From contig NZ_KQ130509.1 of the NCBI RefSeq assembly GCF_001050375.1, forward strand, positions 1-46,670: a DNA stretch of 46,670 nt, in the 5' to 3' direction. The first letter of the stretch is position 1. The number at the start of each line of letters is the position of its first letter. Made by a program: the position numbers and the translations under genes. Below, in pieces: positions 5,438-37,978 of the stretch. The notes beneath the pieces were generated by a model. That model ran no database searches. It was given only the letters and a program-made list of their open reading frames with translations, and was not told the DNA's origin. This DNA comes from Catenovulum maritimum. Lineage in GTDB: Bacteria > Pseudomonadota > Gammaproteobacteria > Enterobacterales > Alteromonadaceae.

Positions 5438-6349
5438 CTAGGATCCTTGATTGAACCATTCAATTCTATTTCGGCCATTTTGTTTTGCTTGATAGAGCAT
5501 TTCATCAGCTTGCTTTAACGCGGCTTCTGGTTTTTGCTCTAGCTCTGGCTGACAAATTACAGCGCCTATACTTATCGTAATTTGTTGGTGCTGGCTGAAT
5601 TCATGTTTTATGTTTAGAGCTTCTATTGCTTGTTTACAGTTTTCTAAGGTTTTCTGCGCCCCTTCAGTGTTTGTATCAGCAATGATAACAACAAACTCTT
5701 CGCCACCATATCTTGCAACAAAATCACGTGGTCTTTGTAATTGTAAATTTAACGCTTTACCGACTTGTGACAGTACTAAATCACCAGCACTATGGCCATA
5801 ATTATCATTATATTGTTTGAACTGATCGACATCTATCATAGCTAACACAATTTCAGTTTTGTTGCGTTGAGCTGCAGCCCATTCATTGGTGATTTGCTCG
5901 TCATACTTTCTTCGATTAGCGATTGAAGTTAGTGGATCAACATTGGCTAGTTCTTCTAGCATAATACATTGTCTGGCTAGGGTTAAATGTAATCTGACTC
6001 TCGCTTTGGCGATACCTAGATGAAAAGGTTTTTGGATATAATCGCAGGCGCCTAGTTCAAAACCTTTCTCTTCACTTTCTACGTCGCCTAAACCTGTGAT
6101 GAATATGACTGGAATTTGGCGAGTGATTTCGCATGCTTTAAGCTCTTTAATCACTTCAAAGCCATCAAAATCAGGCATCATGACATCGAGTAAAATAATA
6201 TCTGGTTTGAGCTCTTGGGCTTTTTTGAGCCCAAGCTTTCCGCAATTGGCTAGGCTAATTTGTGCTTCTCGTTTAAGCAAATCACTTAATATTACTAAGT
6301 TACTTTTTTCATCATCTACGATTAAAACTCGCAGCGCTGGACTAATCAT
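5438..6349 (-). CDS. Response regulator with GGDEF diguanylate cyclase output
   Basis: A 303-residue PleD/WspR-like protein. Residues 5-125 are a receiver domain: acidic pair VDDE, phosphoacceptor Asp55 in ILLDVMMP, Thr in FITG, and Lys107 in QKPF. Residues 135-298 are a GGDEF domain with DPLTSIANRR, DVDQFKQYND and the active loop GGEEF at 215-219. An RxxD inhibitory site (RPRD, 206-209) lies exactly five residues before GGEEF, so product inhibition by c-di-GMP is expected. It starts 2 bases after the hybrid kinase stop, which makes it the likely terminal receiver of that phosphorelay. It should convert 2 GTP to c-di-GMP in the cytoplasm when phosphorylated (family knowledge). Confidence 0.93.
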   Translation of the reverse strand: MISPALRVLIVDDEKSNLVILSDLLKREAQISLANCGKLGLKKAQELKPDIILLDVMMPDFDGFEVIKELKACEITRQIPVIFITGLGDVESEEKGFELGACDYIQKPFHLGIAKARVRLHLTLARQCIMLEELANVDPLTSIANRRKYDEQITNEWAAAQRNKTEIVLAMIDVDQFKQYNDNYGHSAGDLVLSQVGKALNLQLQRPRDFVARYGGEEFVVIIADTNTEGAQKTLENCKQAIEALNIKHEFSQHQQITISIGAVICQPELEQKPEAALKQADEMLYQAKQNGRNRIEWFNQGS

Positions 6350-6351
6350 AA

Positions 6352-9021
6352 CTAGACTTCCTGTAAATTGGGATTGGCTGATATTTTATTCACTATTTGC
6401 TCACATAATTCCGCCGCTTGTTCAAATTCAATCTCATGGACGAAACGTTCAACTTGTTGAATTTGAAGTTTAAGCTCATCCGACATACAAGATTTTACTA
6501 TCTCTGGTAATAAATCTTCTGCGGCAAAGTCTGAACTTTGGAGCAAGGGTAATAGTTGGCGTAAATAGTCAGAGGTTGAAAGCGCATTTTTAATCGACTT
6601 TTTATCTTTAGCTTGATCGAATACGCTTCCAAGCTCATAAAGTAAGTTTTGTAATTGTTTACAGACTAGAGTTAATAACTTGCTGTAATCTTCTTGGCTA
6701 TCTATTTTGTTTTCTATGCTTGCGCAGTTTTTGGATAACTCAAAAGCACCTATATAGGCAGAGCTTGATTTTAAGGCATGGACTTTGATAAATAGCTTAT
6801 CGGACTCGTTATTTTCAGAAAATGCTAAAAATTCACTGACACTATGCTGATGTTCTAGCACAAAATCTGCGGCTAATTTGCAATATAACTTGGTTTTTCC
6901 TTGGCAACGATTCAGGGCTGCATCTAAATTTAAGCTAGTGATCGCACTGAGTTTGCTGAGGATGTAGGAAGTGTCGTCATCTTTCTCATCTATTGTCACT
7001 TTGCTGAAAAGTGGGACAGACTCAGTTACGTTAGGAATCCATTTTAGCAAAACATCAAACAATTCGTCGGCATCGAGTGGTTTGGTTAAATGACCATTCA
7101 TACCGGCATCTAAACTGAGTTGTTTATCTCCTTCCATAGCGTGAGCTGTCATGGCTATGATAGGTAGTTTATTGTACTTATCATTTTGCTTAATCAATTT
7201 TGTCGCTGTATAGCCGTCCATTTTGGGCATTTGTACATCCATCAACACCAAGTCGTAGTGAGTGCTTAATACTTTAGCAACTGCATCTTCACCATCTATC
7301 GCGATATCGATATTGATTTTAGTGTCTTGCAAAAAGCCAGTAACCACTTTCCGATTAATGGCATTATCATCTACGACTAGGATTTTAGCTGATGAGTAAT
7401 CAAGTTGGCCTGCGTCCCATTTAGCTAGAGTAGAAGTGCCTCTTTTTCTATTTGGGGTGAGTTGTTCCGGTGTTAGGCTTTCGGCGATAGCCTCAATTAA
7501 TGTATGTGGCGTAACGGGTTTTTCAAGGTAGGCATCTATTGTACCTAACTCTGATTTTCGCTTGGCTTCATCAAGATCATATGCAGAAAGTAATAAAATG
7601 GCAGGGATATGCGTTTTGCCTAATCCATGCTTAATTTGTTTAGCCGCACTTATGCCGTCTAGCCCAGGCATGCGCCAATCCATTATGATTAAATCGTAGT
7701 CTCGACGAACTTCACTGGCTTTTTTGACCATGTTAATCGCGTCTAAGCCGCTATCAGCGCAATCAACTTGCATACCTAGTTCACTCAGCATTTCCATGAC
7801 TATGCTACGAGCAACTGCACTGTCATCTACGACCAAAGTTTTGAGCTGGGTAAAGTTGACGTAGTTATCTTGGTTTTGTTCTGCATCTTCGACAATTTCA
7901 CATTCGATATTAAAGCTAAAAGTTGAACCTTGATCGGGTTTGCTCTCTACTTGAATTCTGCCTCCCATTAACTCAACCAGTTGTTTGCTAATGGCTAGAC
8001 CTAAGCCTGAACCTTCAAATTCTCTAGTTAACGAGTTGTCTATTTGAGAGAAAGCCGCAAATAAACTTTTTTGTTCTTTTTCTGAAATGCCAATGCCAGT
8101 ATCTGTCACTGAAAAGTGTATCTTGGCGAGATTATTTTTAATTTCGTCTAATTCTATTTTTACTAATATGTGGCCTTTATCGGTAAACTTAATCGCATTA
8201 TTCGCTAGATTAACGAGAATCTGCTGTAAACGATTTGGGTCGCCGATAAGATAATTTGGGACTTGGCTAGACAAGTCTAGAATAAACTCTAGATTTTTAT
8301 CTAACGCTCTTAATTCACAAATAGTGATAGTTCTGTCGATGACTTTTTGCAGACTAAATGGCACTTTCTCTAAGGTTAAGCTATTTGCTTCAACTTTAGA
8401 GAAATCTAATATGTCATTAATAATACTAAGTAAAACTTCTGCGGAACCGAGAATTTTATCGACAAAATCCTGTTGTTCACTTGATAAATCGGTTCGGCTT
8501 AACAATTGACTTAAGCCAATCACCGCATTCATTGGTGTGCGTATTTCATGACTCATTTTAGCTAAAAACTCTGATTTGGCTAAACTAGCACCTTCCGCCT
8601 TTTCTTTTGCTATTTTGAGTTGTTTTTCGGCGTCAACGCGTCTAGTGACATCGCGTGAAATACCTAAAACCCCCATCAATTCGCCTACCTCGTTATAAAA
8701 AGGGGCTTTGAGGGTATCGACTTTTACGGTTCTTCCATCTGGGTATACGGTTGTTTCTTGCTTAGTGATGGTTTCGCCAGTCGATAGGATTTGGCTGTCG
8801 ATTGCTCTAACATTATTGATAGATGCTTGGTTTTCAAAAATGTCTAAATCAGATAACCCAGTTAAATCTTGATTAGGTTTGCCAACTAGCTTAGAGAAAG
8901 CCTCATTATGTGCTATGTAATTCAGATTTTTATCTTTAGCAAAAATTAAATCAGGTGTTGCATTTAAAAGTGCTTTTAATAAAGAGGCGAGTTTATCGTT
9001 ATTATTCATGATTGGGGCCAT
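6352..9021 (-). CDS. Hybrid sensor histidine kinase: PAS-HisKA-HATPase-REC-REC-HPt
   Basis: An 889-residue multistep phosphorelay kinase without a membrane segment, so it senses a cytoplasmic signal. A PAS domain (about 12-128) starts at LLNATPDLIFAKD. His158 in MSHEIRTPMN is the phosphorylated residue. The ATP lid and boxes follow: NLANNAIKF near 271-279, DTGIGI, and GSGLGLAI near 338-345. Two receiver domains carry Asp448 (IIMDW) and Asp595 (LVLMDV). The C-terminal HPt domain has His748 in VHALKSSSAY. The order resembles BarA/ArcB/LuxQ-type kinases but lacks their sensory membrane region. The start at 9021 gives MAPIM; an alternative start four codons later (MNNND) cannot be excluded. It is the first gene of the operon with the diguanylate cyclase and the TIGR03546/TIGR03545 pair. 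Confidence 0.93.
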   Translation of the reverse strand: MAPIMNNNDKLASLLKALLNATPDLIFAKDKNLNYIAHNEAFSKLVGKPNQDLTGLSDLDIFENQASINNVRAIDSQILSTGETITKQETTVYPDGRTVKVDTLKAPFYNEVGELMGVLGISRDVTRRVDAEKQLKIAKEKAEGASLAKSEFLAKMSHEIRTPMNAVIGLSQLLSRTDLSSEQQDFVDKILGSAEVLLSIINDILDFSKVEANSLTLEKVPFSLQKVIDRTITICELRALDKNLEFILDLSSQVPNYLIGDPNRLQQILVNLANNAIKFTDKGHILVKIELDEIKNNLAKIHFSVTDTGIGISEKEQKSLFAAFSQIDNSLTREFEGSGLGLAISKQLVELMGGRIQVESKPDQGSTFSFNIECEIVEDAEQNQDNYVNFTQLKTLVVDDSAVARSIVMEMLSELGMQVDCADSGLDAINMVKKASEVRRDYDLIIMDWRMPGLDGISAAKQIKHGLGKTHIPAILLLSAYDLDEAKRKSELGTIDAYLEKPVTPHTLIEAIAESLTPEQLTPNRKRGTSTLAKWDAGQLDYSSAKILVVDDNAINRKVVTGFLQDTKINIDIAIDGEDAVAKVLSTHYDLVLMDVQMPKMDGYTATKLIKQNDKYNKLPIIAMTAHAMEGDKQLSLDAGMNGHLTKPLDADELFDVLLKWIPNVTESVPLFSKVTIDEKDDDTSYILSKLSAITSLNLDAALNRCQGKTKLYCKLAADFVLEHQHSVSEFLAFSENNESDKLFIKVHALKSSSAYIGAFELSKNCASIENKIDSQEDYSKLLTLVCKQLQNLLYELGSVFDQAKDKKSIKNALSTSDYLRQLLPLLQSSDFAAEDLLPEIVKSCMSDELKLQIQQVERFVHEIEFEQAAELCEQIVNKISANPNLQEV

Positions 9022-17605: not shown

Positions 17606-19483
17606 ATGTCCAACGCCAATATTTTCTTAATTGTTGAAGATGAAAATTTAGAAGAGCTAGAAGAACTTGTTTCTCGGCATGCATCTAATCGAGACGTGTT
17701 TCTCATCAACCTAGTTGATATTCTCCGAGGAGAAACCAAGTTCTCTGAAAACCATCATTGTATTTTGTATTTATCAGATGATGCTAATAGCCAAGTGATT
17801 CCTTTGCTGGCTGAATACAAGTGTGTGATTTCTATTTTACCGCATCCTAAATCACCACAAAGTATTATAGGTTTTGGTATTCATTTTGATTTAGAAGAAG
17901 CTTTAGTTGATGTGTTTCAACAAGAAACATACCAAGTCGACATGATGAAGTGTAATGATGAAATGGTGCTTAATACCATTGAAGTTGGAGATTTTGTCGG
18001 TTTAAAACCTGTGCGTGTTACACGACCTAGTTTTTTTCAACGAATTAAAAGCTTCGGTCAAAGATGGAATGAAATAAGGCATCAAATTCCGTTTAAATTG
18101 ACGTTGACGACGCAAAAAGGCAAAAGCGTGACTACTGCAGTTACCGCGATTTCTGTTGTTCAACATTCTAGTAATACCCGTTTTGTCCAGCACTTAATCG
18201 GTGAGTCGAATATTAATGATGGTATGTTTCATTCTGTATTTTTAGCGCCAAGAAGCTTGCGCCAATTATTTTGGGGATTGTTGAAAAGCATAGTTGAGCC
18301 GCCTAAAAGATTACCTGAATTTATCGGCCATGTTAGAACCGCTATGCTAGATTTTACTTTCGCCAAAGAAATTGAATATCAAATTGATGGTCGAGAAAGG
18401 AAAGGGGAAAGTCTAAAGCTAATTACGCTTGCCAATCATTTACAACTTATTCCTGGTCGGTACTTAAAGGTTGAGCGTAAGCCGGGTAATGGCAAGGAAA
18501 TTTTTCGAACCCAAAATTTACCCACTTTAGATGCGGTACCTGAGCTGATCAGTAAAACCTTACCTTGGAATATTCACGCAGCGACCGAAGAGTTTAGAGA
18601 TATATACCAAGCCCTACGTGAAAATGCGGTCGCCTCGGCCACTTTTTTAACCCTAATGGCGCTTTCTACTATGCTTGCGACTTTAGGTTTATTTGCTAAC
18701 TCAGCACCCGTGCTTATCGGCGCTATGATATTAGCACCTTTAATGGCGCCACTAATCTCTTTAGCTATGGGGACCGTTCGCCAAGACCAAGTATTAATGA
18801 CGCAAGCAGGGAAAACTCTGCTCGCGGGTTTATTGTTAGCCTTATTCTGTGGCGCTTTGTTATCTTTAATGATACCGCTGAAAATATTAACGACAGAAAT
18901 GAGTGCTAGGGTTTCTCCTAATTTACTCGATTTAGGTGTCGCAATTATTTCTGGTGTGGCAGCTGCTTATGCTAATAGTCGCTCTGAAATTGCAAAAAGT
19001 TTAGCTGGTGTCGCCGTTGCGGTAGCACTAGTACCACCGTTAGCGACAACCGGTGTGGCAATCGCTTGGCTCGATTGGGATATGATTAGTGGTTCATTCC
19101 TGCTATTTTTAACTAACTTAGCAGGCATAGTTTTAGCGGCAGCGGTGACGTTTTCTTGGTTGGGTTTTTCTCCTTTCCAGCGGGCTCAAAAGGGGCTTGT
19201 TATCCCAGCTATTATAACCATGCTGGTTTCAATTCCATTGGCAGTAAGTTTTGTCCGAATGATGAATAATGATTCTTGGTCGAATCAAATTCAGTTAATT
19301 CACTTAGATTTTGCTGATATCAAAAATGTCAGTGTGGTTCAGCATGATCCCTTGATTGTCAGATTTGAGTTAGTCGTAACAGATTACCCAAATGCAGAGC
19401 AGCTGGCCGAAATTAAGTCTGTATTACAGAAACAATTACAGAAAGAAATTGAAATGGAAATGACCATAGTCATAAAGAGGTAA
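17606..19483 (+). CDS. DUF389 (TIGR00341-like) integral membrane protein
   Basis: A 625-residue protein. Residues 1-~330 are soluble; they include text such as PGNGKEIFRTQNLPTLDAVPELI. From about 340 the DUF389 membrane region begins with NAVASATFLTLMALSTMLATLGLFANSAPVLIGAMILAPLMAPL spread over two helices, followed by four or more further helices (GLLLALFCGALLSL, VAVAVALVPPLATTGVA, FLTNLAGIVLAAAV, ITMLVSIPLAVSF). A short soluble C-terminal domain ends the protein. DUF389 proteins are widespread and their transport or sensing role is not established. Third gene of the rsmD transcript. Confidence 0.8.
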   Translation: MSNANIFLIVEDENLEELEELVSRHASNRDVFLINLVDILRGETKFSENHHCILYLSDDANSQVIPLLAEYKCVISILPHPKSPQSIIGFGIHFDLEEALVDVFQQETYQVDMMKCNDEMVLNTIEVGDFVGLKPVRVTRPSFFQRIKSFGQRWNEIRHQIPFKLTLTTQKGKSVTTAVTAISVVQHSSNTRFVQHLIGESNINDGMFHSVFLAPRSLRQLFWGLLKSIVEPPKRLPEFIGHVRTAMLDFTFAKEIEYQIDGRERKGESLKLITLANHLQLIPGRYLKVERKPGNGKEIFRTQNLPTLDAVPELISKTLPWNIHAATEEFRDIYQALRENAVASATFLTLMALSTMLATLGLFANSAPVLIGAMILAPLMAPLISLAMGTVRQDQVLMTQAGKTLLAGLLLALFCGALLSLMIPLKILTTEMSARVSPNLLDLGVAIISGVAAAYANSRSEIAKSLAGVAVAVALVPPLATTGVAIAWLDWDMISGSFLLFLTNLAGIVLAAAVTFSWLGFSPFQRAQKGLVIPAIITMLVSIPLAVSFVRMMNNDSWSNQIQLIHLDFADIKNVSVVQHDPLIVRFELVVTDYPNAEQLAEIKSVLQKQLQKEIEMEMTIVIKR

Positions 19484-27835: not shown

Positions 27836-28999
27836 ATGTATGAAGCTTTTTACGGTTTTACTGATAAACCTTTTCATTTAACACCCGATCCAAATTTTTT
27901 CTTTGCGAGTAAACTCCATAATCGCGCTTTATCTTATTTAAAGTACGGTATTAGCCAAGGTGAAGGCTTTATTGTGATTACTGGTCAAATTGGTACTGGT
28001 AAAACAACGATTGCAAATAGCTTATTGGCAGAGCTAGAAAATGATGAAGTAAAAGCTATCCAAATAGTGACGCCAAAATTAAACCCAGAAGATTTAATTT
28101 TTGTAACGGCGGCAAAGCTTGGCTTAAATACGGATAACAAATCCAAAGGCCAAGTACTCCAGTTAATTGAACAAGAGTTAGCAAGACTAGTTTCGAGCGG
28201 TTACCGTGCATTATTAGTAGTAGATGAAGCGCAAAACTTACCAGTAGAATCGGTTGAAGAGCTGCGCATGCTGTCCAATTTCCAAATTGATGGTAAGCCT
28301 TTATTACAAAGCTTTTTACTCGGTCAGCCTGAACTGAGAGAGTTACTTCAACTACCAAACATGGAGCAGTTTAGGCAGCGAATTGTGGCATCATGCGACT
28401 TGAAACCATTGTCTCAACCAGAAACTCATGAATATATTAACTTTAGATTAGCAGCTGCTGCAGGTAAGCCAGTAGACATTATCGCTAATGAAGCAATCGA
28501 ATCAATTTACGATTTCACCGGCGGTACTCCAAGACGAATTAACACTCTGTGTGACCGAGTTTTACTTTATGGGTTTTTAGAAGACAAAACGCTATTAACG
28601 GCCGAAGATGTAGCAACCGTAATTGCAGAAATTAAGCAAGAATCTGCTGATTTAGAGCCAGAAAAACTAGTTCAAGCGAGCAATCCAAGCACTCAGCAAG
28701 AAAACCGTTCGGAAGAAAATATAACCCAACAGACAGTTGAGAATGAAAGCAAGTTAGAAGACTTAACGCCGCCAGCGCCACAATTCGGTAGTGTTAAAGC
28801 GTCAGGGTTACCAAAAGATGTTATGGATGATGTAACGCACCTGAGAAACATGCTGTCAGAAATTAAATACACCCTAGAAACATCTATAGAATATAAGTTA
28901 AAGGTAAGTCGCTACATAGATAACGTGATTAACCGCAAACTGAAACAACTTAAGCAAGTCTCGAATGTTGAAGATGAGCAAAAAGAACTAGATGAATAA
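27836..28999 (+). CDS. ExeA/GspA-like AAA ATPase (XrtA-associated ATPase type)
   Basis: 387 residues. The N-terminus MYEAFYGFTDKPFHLTPDPN is the signature of ExeA-like ATPases, including the PEP-CTERM/XrtA-associated family. Walker A GQIGTGKTT is at 50-58, Walker B ALLVVDEAQN at 125-133, and LSNF, GQPELRELL and FTGGTPRRIN follow. The C-terminal ~120 residues are acidic, Gln/Glu-rich and have no peptidoglycan-binding domain or membrane helix, unlike ExeA. There is no exosortase, EPS or type II secretion gene nearby, so it is an orphan. Probable role: ATP-driven assembly of an envelope machine. A MITE lies upstream and the Csr-type RNA gene is convergent downstream. Confidence 0.8.
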   Translation: MYEAFYGFTDKPFHLTPDPNFFFASKLHNRALSYLKYGISQGEGFIVITGQIGTGKTTIANSLLAELENDEVKAIQIVTPKLNPEDLIFVTAAKLGLNTDNKSKGQVLQLIEQELARLVSSGYRALLVVDEAQNLPVESVEELRMLSNFQIDGKPLLQSFLLGQPELRELLQLPNMEQFRQRIVASCDLKPLSQPETHEYINFRLAAAAGKPVDIIANEAIESIYDFTGGTPRRINTLCDRVLLYGFLEDKTLLTAEDVATVIAEIKQESADLEPEKLVQASNPSTQQENRSEENITQQTVENESKLEDLTPPAPQFGSVKASGLPKDVMDDVTHLRNMLSEIKYTLETSIEYKLKVSRYIDNVINRKLKQLKQVSNVEDEQKELDE

Positions 29000-29021
29000 T
29001 TAACCTAAATTCAGGTTAATT
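28998..29021 (+). terminator. Stem-loop at the ExeA-like gene stop
   Basis: Nine-bp stem AATTAACCT/AGGTTAATT with a 6-base loop overlapping the stop codon; no T-run follows. The TAACCT...TTCAGGTTA ends equal the ends of the MITE family here, so it might instead be a residual MITE end. Confidence 0.35.
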
Positions 29022-29027
29022 AAAGGC

Positions 29028-29228
29028 AAAAAAAAGGCAGTGTAAAATTACACTGCCGTATTCACTATTATCATCCATAATACAAAATTCCCAAGGGAGA
29101 TATTACTCCTTGTAAAGCTTCATCCTGAATGTCCTATGTCCATTGACTTATCCTATAAGCCTAGCTTCCTTATCCATCGATAAATGACCACTTGTTTTAA
29201 GTCCTATAAAACCATTTCTCTTCGGGGC
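29028..29228 (-). ncRNA. csrB: Csr/Rsm-type regulatory RNA (CsrB/CsrC-like)
   Basis: On the minus strand this region has ten GGA motifs in about 130 bases (complements at 29074, 29089, 29107, 29123, 29132, 29139, 29151, 29167, 29173 and 29202). Several lie in hairpin loops: GTTTTA-TAGGAC-TTAAAAC, CTTA-TAGGA-TAAG, TTCA-GGA-TGAA, TTAC-AAGGA-GTAA and TATTA-TGGATG-ATAATA. TTCAGGATGAA is the classical CsrB repeat. The RNA ends in a perfect hairpin (GGCAGTGTAA, 29036-29045; TTACACTGCC, 29048-29057) followed by eight T on the minus strand. Such RNAs sequester the translational regulator CsrA. There is no comparable ORF. The 5' end is uncertain: a GTGCGC discriminator suggests about 29225, and a weak promoter (TTGTCT-17-TAAATG) would suggest about 29260. 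CsrB versus CsrC or Rsm naming cannot be decided. Confidence 0.85.
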
Positions 29229-29594
29229 GCACTAACATGAAACCTTTACTAAATGCTATCCGTCACATTTATTAACTGATTAAAGTGTAGACAATTATTT
29301 GTATTTTGCTGGCACTTCTAATCTAAAATAATTTAATTTGTTTCGAATCTATATTTTAAAATTATTATAAATCAATCGGTTATGGTTTTTGTGGCGTGAT
29401 TGCTAAACCAATCTCTTACTATAAAAAGGGTAATATCTCACAAAATTAGTTAATGACTTTCTGGTGCTAGCGTATTGAAATTTTTGAATGGCCGAACTTA
29501 AAAGTGATTTGGTTATTATTAATTAAAATAAATAGACATTGGCTGTAAGTGATTGTAATTTATATTTTTAACAATGCCTGTCATGCAGGTAATT
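29229..29594. other. Intergenic AT-rich stretch upstream of the Csr-type RNA
   Basis: 366 bases with no supported ORF. The right-hand promoter region of the Csr-type RNA must lie at its left end. I looked for a GacA/UvrY site (TGTAAG-6-CTTACA) and found no good match. The rest is A/T-rich and carries nothing I can name. Confidence 0.5.
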
Positions 29595-29938
29595 TACAAT
29601 ATTTTTTCATGCAACAAATAGATTATCTGGACAGATACCTTTAAAACCACAAGTTAAGCTAAACGAGCAGGCGCGAAGCTTGCTGGCACGTTTTTGAAAG
29701 CAAAACCTTTGTTGAGATTAAATAGATATATTGAGTTAACCTTCACGCGTCAGCAAGCTTGACGCCTACAATATTTTTTCATGCAACAAATAGATTATCT
29801 GGACAGATACCTTTAAAACCACAAGTTAAGCTAAACGAGCAGGCGCGATGCTTGCTCGCGCGTTTTTGAAAGCAAAACCTTTGTTGAGATTAAACAGATA
29901 TAGTGATTTAACCTTCACGCGTCAGCAAGCTTGACGCC
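29595..29938. repeat. Two tandem 172-bp repeats, each containing a REP-like inverted repeat
   Basis: Unit 1 is 29595-29766 and unit 2 is 29767-29938, starting at TACAATATTTTTTCATGCAA; they differ at roughly six positions. A third unit begins at 29939 but fades within about 20 bases. Inside each unit, AGGCGCGA.GCTTGCT and its inverted partner CAGCAAGCTTGACGCCT bracket about 100 bases, so each unit can fold as a long hairpin. No ORF is present. Confidence 0.9.
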
Positions 29939-30130
29939 TACAATGTTTTTAATATGCAATATTGCCTTAGACCAAAAATCTAACCCTTAAACTGCTTCAT
30001 TCAAGCGGTAACAAATCTCAGTTAATGCCTTTCATTCTGGTCTATTTTCAACACCAGAAAGCTAGACGGCTCGATTCCTGCTTTTAGGGTTAAATTTGAT
30101 GCGGTATCATAGCGCTTTATCTTTTCGAGA
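29939..30130 (+). promoter_or_regulatory. Upstream region of hrpB
   Basis: Holds the truncated third repeat start, a small stem TTCTGGT/ACCAGAA (30035-30041 and 30053-30059) and a possible -10 TATCAT followed by AGCGC near 30102-30113. The -35 is poor. No gene is seen. Confidence 0.35.
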
Positions 30131-32608
30131 ATGATGCCGATTTTGCTGCCTGTTGAAGCCGTATTTACTGAAATACACCAAGCTATAAATGCTCACCCAA
30201 GTGTTATTTTGCAAGCGCCGCCAGGGGCAGGTAAATCAACTTGGTTACCACTGGCTTTGCTGGCGCAAGGAAAATGGCATGGCAAGTTAATTTTACTTGA
30301 GCCAAGGCGAGTCGCCGCGCGCAATATTGCACATTACTTAAGTCAACAATTAGATGAAAAAATAGGCCAAACAATTGGTTTAAGAATGAGAGGCGAAACG
30401 CGAGTCTCATCCCAAACAAAACTAGAAGTGGTGACCGAAGGGGTTTTAACGCGAATTTTGCAAAGCGATCCTGAACTCAGCGACTATCACTTGGTTTTGT
30501 TTGATGAGTTTCACGAACGGTCATTGCAGTCGGATTTAGCCTTTGTATTGGCAAAACAAGTACAAGCTGCGCTTAGAGACGATTTAAAACTATTAATCAT
30601 GTCTGCTACTTTAGATTTGGCGAGTTTAAACAGAACCCTACCAGATGCGCCTGTGATTAAAAGTGAAGGGCGTAATTTTCCTATCGAGGTTTTTTATCGG
30701 CCTTATAAAACAAATAATAATGATTGGTTTGGCTTTGAAAACCACATTATAAAAGTGATAAAAGAGAGCCTAGTTAACTCTGGCGATATTTTAGTTTTCT
30801 TGGCGGGTAGCGGCGAAATTAATCGGTTAGAAAAACAACTAAAACAAACCGAATTAAATAAGTTTGCTATTCACACTTTACATGGTCAGCTTAGTTTAAA
30901 ACAGCAACAACAAGCACTGCAGGCCGATCAACAAGGCAAACGTAAAATTGTATTAGCAACCAATATTGCTGAAACCAGTTTAACCATAGAAAACGTCAGT
31001 ATAGTAATAGACACCGGCCTACATAAAAAAGTTAAATACGATAATGTCAGTGAATTTAGCCAACTGATTACCGAGCAAATTTCACAAGATTCGGCCGTGC
31101 AACGTATGGGGCGAGCGGGACGAACTCATGCCGGGATTTGTTATCGTTTATGGCCAGAAGAAAGCCAATCCAGATTAAGAAAACATTATCCAGCAGAAAT
31201 TGAGCAAGCCGATCTATCGCAACTGTGTTTTGAAGTTTACTTATGGGGTGAAACCAATGTATTAGATCTCGATTGGCCAACACCTCCGAGTGATAATCAG
31301 ATCCGCCTCGCAAATGAAAAGCTCGCTAGGCTTAAGCTAATTGATTTATCGCCTTCTCAGCAAAAAATAACCGAATTGGGTTTACAGCTCCAAGCGAAAG
31401 GGGCTGATTTAATTGCTGGTATTATCTTAAATGTAAAACCAGATTTAGCGCTCGCACACTTATTTGCTGCATGGTTACAAGAAAATCGTCAAGTGAACAC
31501 TTGGCAGCTAAATCAAAGTTTGGTTGAACTTTGCAAGTCGAATAATCCGATTAAACAAGCGGCAGAAAAAAGCTTACAGCGAGAAATTTCCGCTGCTAGT
31601 ATCGAGCAGCAATTTGACGATTTGTATCAAGTCATAGTACCGCTTTTTATTCACCGTGTTGCCAAAAAGCTCGGTAATCAAAATGATAAGGTGAGTTATT
31701 TAATGGCTTGCGGCAGTGCGGTCGACTTGTATGCTGCCGACTCACTAAATCCGCCAGAGTGGATTTTGGTAATAGATGCAAGCATGTCGAATAAAAGCCC
31801 AAATGCCACGATTCGCTCTGCTTTTGAATTAGACTGGCAAATGCTCGAAGCTATTATTCAGCCTTATTTACAAAAGCGAACCCAAGTTGATTACCAAGCG
31901 AATCAGCTCAGTTTTTATCAGCAAACTAGTTTGCTTAAATTACCGCTTAATAAAGTTAAATTAAGCCAAGCACCCAGTCAGCAAGAGAAAACTCAAGCAT
32001 GGTTGGCTTTGATAAATAAGCAGGGAATCGAGTTATTTAATCACGCTGATGCGATTAAGTTATTTATTTATCGTTGGAATTTGGCAGCTGAAGTTAACTC
32101 AGATTTTGCATCGATTTCGTTTTCGTATTTAATTGAAACCGCCGAAACTTGGTTAAGTTTGTATTTGGCGGATATTAATTCAGTTAAGCAGCTTGCGAAT
32201 TTAGATATAGCCGCACTTTGGTTACAGCAAAAAGATTATGCGTTACAGCAAACTCTAGCTAGTTTACTTCCTACTAAGTATGAAATGCCAGACGGGCGGG
32301 TGGTTAAAATAGATTACAGCCATGAATCTGGGCCTAAGCTAAGTTGTTTTATGCAATCTTTTTATGGTTTAACTGAGCACCCAAGTATCGCTAATGGTAG
32401 AGTAAAGCTAACTTGTGAACTTTTATCACCAGCTAAAAGACCAATCCAAACCACACAAGATTTAATTAATTTTTGGTCTGGCAGTTACGACATAGTCAAA
32501 AAAGAAATGAAAGGGCGATATCCTAAGCATTATTGGCCGGACGATCCTCTGGTAGCAGAAGCTGGAACAAAAACAAAAAGGCAAAGGTCACAAACGAATG
32601 ACAATTAA
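30131..32608 (+). CDS. hrpB: ATP-dependent helicase HrpB
   Basis: 825 residues, normal HrpB length. DExH helicase: motif I QAPPGAGKSTWLPL, motif II FDEFHERS, motif III MSATLD, NIAETSLTIENV, and motif VI QRMGRAGRTHAG. The C-terminal part contains the HrpB-specific block near KYEMPDGRVVKIDY and GPKLSCFMQSFYGLTEHP. Its cellular substrate is not established. Two adjacent ATG codons (30131 and 30134) leave the exact start open by one residue. The end overlaps mrcB by 11 bases, and this gene pair is conserved in gammaproteobacteria. Confidence 0.95.
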   Translation: MMPILLPVEAVFTEIHQAINAHPSVILQAPPGAGKSTWLPLALLAQGKWHGKLILLEPRRVAARNIAHYLSQQLDEKIGQTIGLRMRGETRVSSQTKLEVVTEGVLTRILQSDPELSDYHLVLFDEFHERSLQSDLAFVLAKQVQAALRDDLKLLIMSATLDLASLNRTLPDAPVIKSEGRNFPIEVFYRPYKTNNNDWFGFENHIIKVIKESLVNSGDILVFLAGSGEINRLEKQLKQTELNKFAIHTLHGQLSLKQQQQALQADQQGKRKIVLATNIAETSLTIENVSIVIDTGLHKKVKYDNVSEFSQLITEQISQDSAVQRMGRAGRTHAGICYRLWPEESQSRLRKHYPAEIEQADLSQLCFEVYLWGETNVLDLDWPTPPSDNQIRLANEKLARLKLIDLSPSQQKITELGLQLQAKGADLIAGIILNVKPDLALAHLFAAWLQENRQVNTWQLNQSLVELCKSNNPIKQAAEKSLQREISAASIEQQFDDLYQVIVPLFIHRVAKKLGNQNDKVSYLMACGSAVDLYAADSLNPPEWILVIDASMSNKSPNATIRSAFELDWQMLEAIIQPYLQKRTQVDYQANQLSFYQQTSLLKLPLNKVKLSQAPSQQEKTQAWLALINKQGIELFNHADAIKLFIYRWNLAAEVNSDFASISFSYLIETAETWLSLYLADINSVKQLANLDIAALWLQQKDYALQQTLASLLPTKYEMPDGRVVKIDYSHESGPKLSCFMQSFYGLTEHPSIANGRVKLTCELLSPAKRPIQTTQDLINFWSGSYDIVKKEMKGRYPKHYWPDDPLVAEAGTKTKRQRSQTNDN

Positions 32609-37794: not shown

Positions 37795-37978
37795 GTGCTT
37801 CCCGAAGTGTCGATTAGGGTATAGCCCTTGAACCGTAAGGTTCAAGGCGGAAAATACCACTCGGCCGTAGGCTTCTCGGTACATGCCGAGCCTGCTCAAT
37901 AGCCGAGGCGGTATCATCCTAAAATAAAATTATCGGCTCAGGGACATAACCCATAGGCGAACACTTCAGGAAACATAA
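37795..37978 (-). ncRNA. ssrS: 6S RNA
   Basis: About 184 nt on the minus strand. Text matching the conserved 6S RNA blocks: GAAGTGTTCGCC at the 5' side, GTCCCTGAGCCGATA, GGCTCGGCATGTACCGAGAA in the apical part, CCTTGAACCTTACGGTTCAA, and a closing arm CGACACTTCGGGAAG that pairs with the 5' arm. 6S RNA binds the sigma-70 holoenzyme and downregulates many promoters in stationary phase. It lies beside ygfB, as in E. coli (where ygfB, zapA, ssrS and ygfA cluster), though zapA and ygfA are absent here. A promoter is predicted about 40 bases upstream, so the 5' end is probably matured. A small ORF overlapping it is not a gene. Confidence 0.95.

Follow-up and report, generated by a model that had tools for sequence, protein, structure and literature searches.

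The gap between an ATPase gene and hrpB in Catenovulum maritimum raises the question of whether it encodes a small RNA that sequesters CsrA. A first-pass annotation of the 46,670-nucleotide stretch of DNA analysed here (the window) placed a Csr/Rsm-type RNA on its minus strand. We conclude that this locus is probably the gene of a CsrA-sequestering small RNA of that type, which would be the third in this Catenovulum genome. Its features are a GGA array, a terminator, an operator-like site whose spacing is right and a likeness to a GGA-rich RNA beside dksA, and the genome has matches to CsrA and UvrY. The annotation is thereby upheld on GGA density, operator, dksA-side likeness and protein partners, but neither a match in Rfam nor conservation of the array at the hrpB locus came to its support. 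The features are collected in Table 1.

Table 1. Features of the candidate RNA and its upstream region, in window positions.
Feature	Position	Strand	Basis and remarks
Probable CsrA-sequestering small RNA	29028..29262	-	Operator, eleven GGA and terminator, without a credible ORF; length ~235-250 nt, depending on the 5' end
GGA array (10 GGA), including TTCAGGATGAA at 29129-29119	29074..29204	-	GGA counts and shuffles
Intrinsic terminator with eight-T tail	29028..29057	-	Terminator scan; stem GGCAGTGTAATTTTACACTGCC at 29057-29036, then TTTTTTTT to 29028
Core TGTTAGTGCGCC common to hrpB-side RNAs of G004 and G006	29226..29237	-	Alignment; variants TGTTAGTGCGC in G003 and TGTTAGTGC in G002
Stretch resembling the host's own GGA-rich RNA beside dksA	29116..29170	-	Local score 45 against a maximum of 35 in 1000 trinucleotide-preserving shuffles
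UvrY/GacA-type operator TGTGAGATATTACCCTTT	29425..29442	-	Matrix score 15.0, the window's best on either strand; next 10.2
Candidate -10 CTACACT	29284..29290	-	152 nt from operator start; CTACACT or CTAGACT in other hrpB-side RNAs; putative
Alternative -10 TAATAA	29269..29274	-	168 nt after operator start; read from the sequence; putative

GGA array, terminator and coding content

The ten GGA in about 130 bases reported by the annotation were recounted as ten in 131 nt, and an eleventh GGA lies upstream at 29261 on the same strand. When both strands were scanned, ten GGA per 160 nt was the window maximum and fell at the candidate RNA; the next separate cluster had six (near 19256, minus strand) and the plus-strand maximum was five. 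A density of ten was reached in 1 of 300 dinucleotide-preserving shuffles of the whole window (both strands) and in none of 2000 such shuffles of the minus strand of the gap 29000-30130, where the shuffle maximum was eight. Like Csr/Rsm sequestering RNAs, the window RNA carries many GGA beyond chance (11 in all).

The terminator and eight-T tail were also recovered on the minus strand, and no ORF of at least 80 aa is found between the ATPase gene (which ends at 28999) and hrpB (which starts at 30131). An intrinsic terminator and the lack of a protein gene again agree with a Csr/Rsm RNA. The gap between the RNA and hrpB also contains two head-to-tail copies of 172 nt (29595-29938), which are 97% identical and have an inverted repeat inside.

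Predicted folding of the GGA sites

At least five GGA had been assigned to hairpin loops. In local hairpins of at least 4 pairs, 8 of the 11 GGA can occupy a loop (control mean 4.2; 48 of 2000 controls reach 8), and at 5 pairs or more four of the 11 do so (control mean 1.5; 116 of 2000 as good). In these controls the GGA were held fixed and the remaining letters were shuffled. The picture was less clear in folding of the whole RNA, where the mean unpaired probability was 0.52 for GGA, 0.43 for other G and 0.40 for all other positions, and where the GGA at 29109 was nearly fully paired. The folding energy of 29028-29228 had a z of -1.62, with 10 of 200 shuffles equally low. The GGA are predicted to be only mildly more unpaired than the rest of the RNA, a point against the Csr/Rsm reading.

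Database searches

At gathering score no Rfam Csr/Rsm model matched the window RNA, so the check suggested by the annotation was negative and the RNA falls outside the Csr/Rsm sequence families (clan CL00106) at that score. The sole match in the window was 6S RNA (37795-37975, minus strand, 118.6 bits). A permissive scan gave CsrC at 9.9 bits against a gathering score of 61, over the terminator only. RsmY, RsmX and RsmZ of Pseudomonas have a GGA array, GacA control and a size near that of the window RNA; however, the window RNA did not match them at gathering score (RsmY RF00195, RsmX RF02144 and RF00166, which we take to be RsmZ).

The CsrB model (RF00018) matched none of the eight Catenovulum genomes, with 28 of 51-97 first-look candidates scored per genome, and CsrB therefore goes unrecognised in Catenovulum. 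Across 40 genomes it matched 20 at E 0.001 and five above the cut-off. One relative carries a run of five CsrB matches, each exceeding the gathering score, packed into 3.2 kb (G031:C1:4533806-4536939).

A nucleotide search with the window RNA hit a single one of 39 other genomes, with a match of 42 nt at the terminator, and plasmids gave no match. Synteny around the ATPase gene (five loci) revealed nothing. Among the papers searched, none pairs Catenovulum with CsrB or with CsrA, and two mention the genus along with small RNA.

GGA-rich RNAs beside folA and dksA

Searching for patterns around TTCAGGATGAA led to two further GGA loci. The first is found downstream of obgE-folA in all eight Catenovulum genomes, in two of which (the host genome G000, and G002) it was located through the obgE gene. 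It has no match to Rfam CsrB. It reaches up to 17-21 GGA per 200 nt in the six genomes first examined, and its dense stretch (at least 9 GGA per 200 nt) covers 411-804 nt in six genomes, a measure of GGA density and not of transcript ends. At the other locus, a small RNA with 9-14 GGA in 166-200 nt separates yceI from dksA in seven of the eight genomes; none was seen in G002. GCAGCTAACCGT precedes the terminator in 7/7 dksA-side RNAs, and that of G007 scored 27.2 bits against RsmY (gathering score 57). A TGTRAGANAT.. box stands upstream of all 15 folA- and dksA-side RNAs. At dksA loci L140 and L152, weak intergenic GGA clusters were seen (6 and 7 per 160 nt).

We compared these RNAs with the window RNA by local alignment, against 1000 shuffles that kept trinucleotides and all 11 GGA. 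No shuffle was as good as the alignment with the dksA-side RNA of the host genome (Table 1) or with that of G005 (score 40, shuffle maximum 34), and two were as good for G007. The remaining dksA-side RNAs showed no excess over chance (G004 97, G001 177, G003 421 and G006 433 shuffles as good), nor did the two folA-side RNAs tested (G000 814, G007 365).

We built a covariance model from the seven dksA-side RNAs and searched 171 kb with it. The window RNA was not among the places listed, of which two fell elsewhere in the window, and the best matches were folA-side RNAs (17.3 and 14.5 bits). Applied to 4 kb without filters, it gave the window RNA 7.5 bits (E 0.039). That the model missed the window RNA is weak evidence, because its RNAalifold structure seems to mispair the terminator; one hairpin of the model (columns 113-131) covaries. 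The window RNA thus shares box, spacing and GGA array with the dksA- and folA-side RNAs and resembles three of the seven dksA-side RNAs in its body, but differs from the latter in its locus, in having no GCAGCTAACCGT tail and in being missed by their model.

Operator and 5' end

The operator was scored with a matrix of 18 boxes (8 folA-side, 7 dksA-side and 3 hrpB-side) chosen by the half-site TGTRAGANAT. The window site was excluded from the matrix, unlike an earlier pattern that had been shaped with this site in view. The window operator scores below all 18 training sites (range 17.4-26.9) and its right half is imperfect. In nine other Catenovulum stretches, 12 of 233,210 positions score at least 15.0, true boxes counted in. 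The box of the host's own folA-side RNA is TGTGAGAGATCTCCTACA. In E. coli, the csrB UvrY operator is TGTGAGAGATCTCTTACA, centred at -183/-182, and the csrC operator, TGTGAGACATTGCCGATA, is less symmetric (PMC4682653, in excerpt). The window operator agrees with this csrC site, taken from the same excerpt, at 13 of 18 letters, counted by eye.

From the operator start to the first GGA of the array is 181 nt in the window RNA, compared with 193-197 nt in the eight folA-side and 179-194 nt in the seven dksA-side RNAs; these distances skip scattered earlier GGA. An operator about 180 nt upstream is what a Csr/Rsm RNA would have, although this site is weaker than the 18 training sites.

The annotation probably set the 5' boundary, at 29228, too far downstream: the distance from the operator, together with the eleventh GGA (29261), would place the start near 29262-29277. 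A sigma-70 promoter scan found nothing at the proposed start, and two candidate -10 elements are given in Table 1. The counterparts of the CTACACT element lie 171, 187 and 187 nt from the operator start in three hrpB-side relatives, against 152 nt in the window. In all 15 folA- and dksA-side RNAs a TANNWT hexamer occurs 163-179 nt from the operator; the same scan of the window gave one hexamer only, at 184 nt, which is not the TAATAA.

CsrA and UvrY

A CsrA match was present in 24 of 24 genomes searched, including the host (G000:C8:22039-22194). UvrY matched in 8/8 Catenovulum genomes, and the host match (G000:C26:5609-6244) is 70% identical to E. coli UvrY. Both proteins that go with a Csr/Rsm RNA are thus present in the genome. 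The uvrY match of G006 (G006:C23) covers residues 1-129 of 218 only and has an internal stop, which may reflect either a true disruption of the gene or an error in the assembly.

Csr/Rsm RNAs act in trans on a diffusible regulator that serves the whole genome. The annotation had tied the RNA to the phosphorelay and c-di-GMP genes of the window (a response regulator-GGDEF and a hybrid kinase, 5438-9021), which lie 20 kb from the RNA. With a diffusible target and at this distance, the link is unsupported.

The hrpB locus across species

The window RNA adjoins hrpB and points away from it. Four other genomes (G002, G003, G004 and G006) have a predicted RNA with a terminator at the same place and in the same direction, and share TGTTAGTGC with it. 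The boxes are TGTAAGATATTGCC in G003 and TGTAAGAGATCGCC in both G004 and G006; none was found for the RNA of G002, so that the operator is common to four of the five hrpB-side RNAs. In G001, G005 and G007, the 1.5 kb upstream of hrpB contain neither box nor core, and by eye another open frame is there. The five RNAs can be aligned with confidence only in the core, -10 and terminator. By locus, direction, operator and core the window RNA belongs to this group, but the core match alone is weak and the other members have no GGA array.

Indeed, the RNAs of G002, G003, G004 and G006 contain 2-3 GGA only, and in the three with a box the first GGA lies 268-301 nt past it. The GGA array is therefore not conserved at the hrpB locus, and this speaks against the simplest reading. 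Loop conservation in relatives, whose absence the annotation named as a refutation, thus fails at this locus in four species, while arrays recur on the folA side (8/8) and the dksA side (7/8). A GU-rich stretch, seen by eye, precedes the core in all four relatives and is missing from the window RNA. These GU-rich predicted small RNAs that share TGTTAGTGC are possibly base-pairing RNAs. An identity with GcvB (RF00022) was dropped for the hrpB-side RNAs, as only that of G002 scored (23.1 bits, gathering score 42); the host genome has a single GcvB match at E 0.001, which lies on a different contig and falls short of the cut-off.

The window RNA thus appears to have a body like that of a dksA-side RNA, most of all the host copy, and the place, core and terminator of an hrpB-side RNA. 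These likenesses do not distinguish between duplication, conversion and a common descent of all the RNAs.

Alternative explanations

The RNA could instead act by base pairing, as the UvrY-controlled product of the hrpB locus whose hallmark is the shared UGUUAGUGC(G); the GGA array of this species would then be secondary or give only a side activity. It would then have a dual function like McaS, which is named as CsrA-binding in PMC11882849 (in excerpt). This reading draws on the common place and direction at hrpB, on the box in three and TGTTAGTGC in all four of the other species, on a terminator stem resembling that of G003 and on the GU-rich stretch of the relatives. The window RNA, however, has no such GU-rich stretch and its core is predicted to be mostly paired in whole-RNA folding. 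The shared stretch is also short, and the likeness is equalled by 8, 10 and 16 of 1000 shuffles for G003, G004 and G006 and by 265 for G002. We regard this reading as rather unlikely. A related suggestion, which we make tentatively and hold to be unlikely as well, is a chimera, in which the promoter, the 5' core UGUUAGUGCGCC and the terminator of an old UvrY-controlled, possibly base-pairing hrpB RNA have been combined with the GGA body of a dksA-side sponge.

It is very unlikely that the locus lacks a function, whether as a copy of the dksA-side RNA in decay or as a chance GGA-rich stretch beside a terminator. Such a stretch might show what is seen here: an operator weaker than the others, and a nucleotide search that across 39 other genomes reached no further than 42 nt at one terminator. 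But GGA density and operator spacing are preserved, where decay should erode GGA as readily as any other letters, and the eight-T tail falls on the minus strand. Least of all do we favour a short translated gene whose AGGA are Shine-Dalgarno sequences, which is extremely improbable: AGGA does stand ahead of ATG in places, but the single ORF of at least 20 aa that overlaps the RNA reads through the terminator, and eleven consecutive GGA would be left unexplained.

Proposed function and comparison with known systems

On the preferred reading, that of a CsrA-sequestering RNA, we infer for C. maritimum that the RNA is transcribed under UvrY control, binds CsrA and has an effect by doing so. Phosphorylated UvrY (GacA) would bind the operator and activate minus-strand transcription from the proposed start to the terminator. 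The RNA would offer its approximately eleven GGA sites to CsrA dimers and draw CsrA off its target mRNAs, which would be freed. It would join two such RNAs of the same genome, a larger one at folA and a small one at dksA. This scheme is modelled on the BarA-UvrY-CsrA pathway as described elsewhere (PMC4682653 and PMC3171408, in excerpt). A caution comes from Shewanella, where a predicted CsrC with four motifs is transcribed yet not under BarA/UvrY control (PMC3171408).

Like CsrB and CsrC of E. coli (RF00018, RF00084), the window RNA has a GGA array, a far-upstream UvrY operator and a terminator, and CsrA sequestration would be the shared function. Those RNAs have 22 and 14 GGA (PMC11882849, in excerpt), compared with 11 here. 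Portions of the same paper describe three RNAs of Pseudoalteromonas fuliginea, Pf1, Pf2 and Pf3, which have 25, 21 and 9 GGA and coexist in one genome. Pf2 and Pf3 bind CsrA by gel shift, all three are among the top CsrA pull-down peaks, and for Pf1 and Pf2 the authors report there no matches beyond Pseudoalteromonas. Catenovulum likewise has several predicted GGA RNAs per genome, a likeness at the level of description.

Most likely, then, the locus adds a new case to a familiar type of switch and has an unusually hybrid appearance. The Catenovulum RNAs would fill a gap, as matches to CsrA and UvrY are found in 8/8 genomes of the genus and to Rfam CsrB in none, and a testable Csr circuit for a marine bacterial genus would result. 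If the chimera were true, a single molecule would combine CsrA sequestration with mRNA pairing, and the series of species would display a base-pairing RNA becoming a CsrA sponge, or the reverse. Within one genus, the hrpB locus has an operator-driven RNA with or without a GGA array, which bears on the origin of sponge RNAs.
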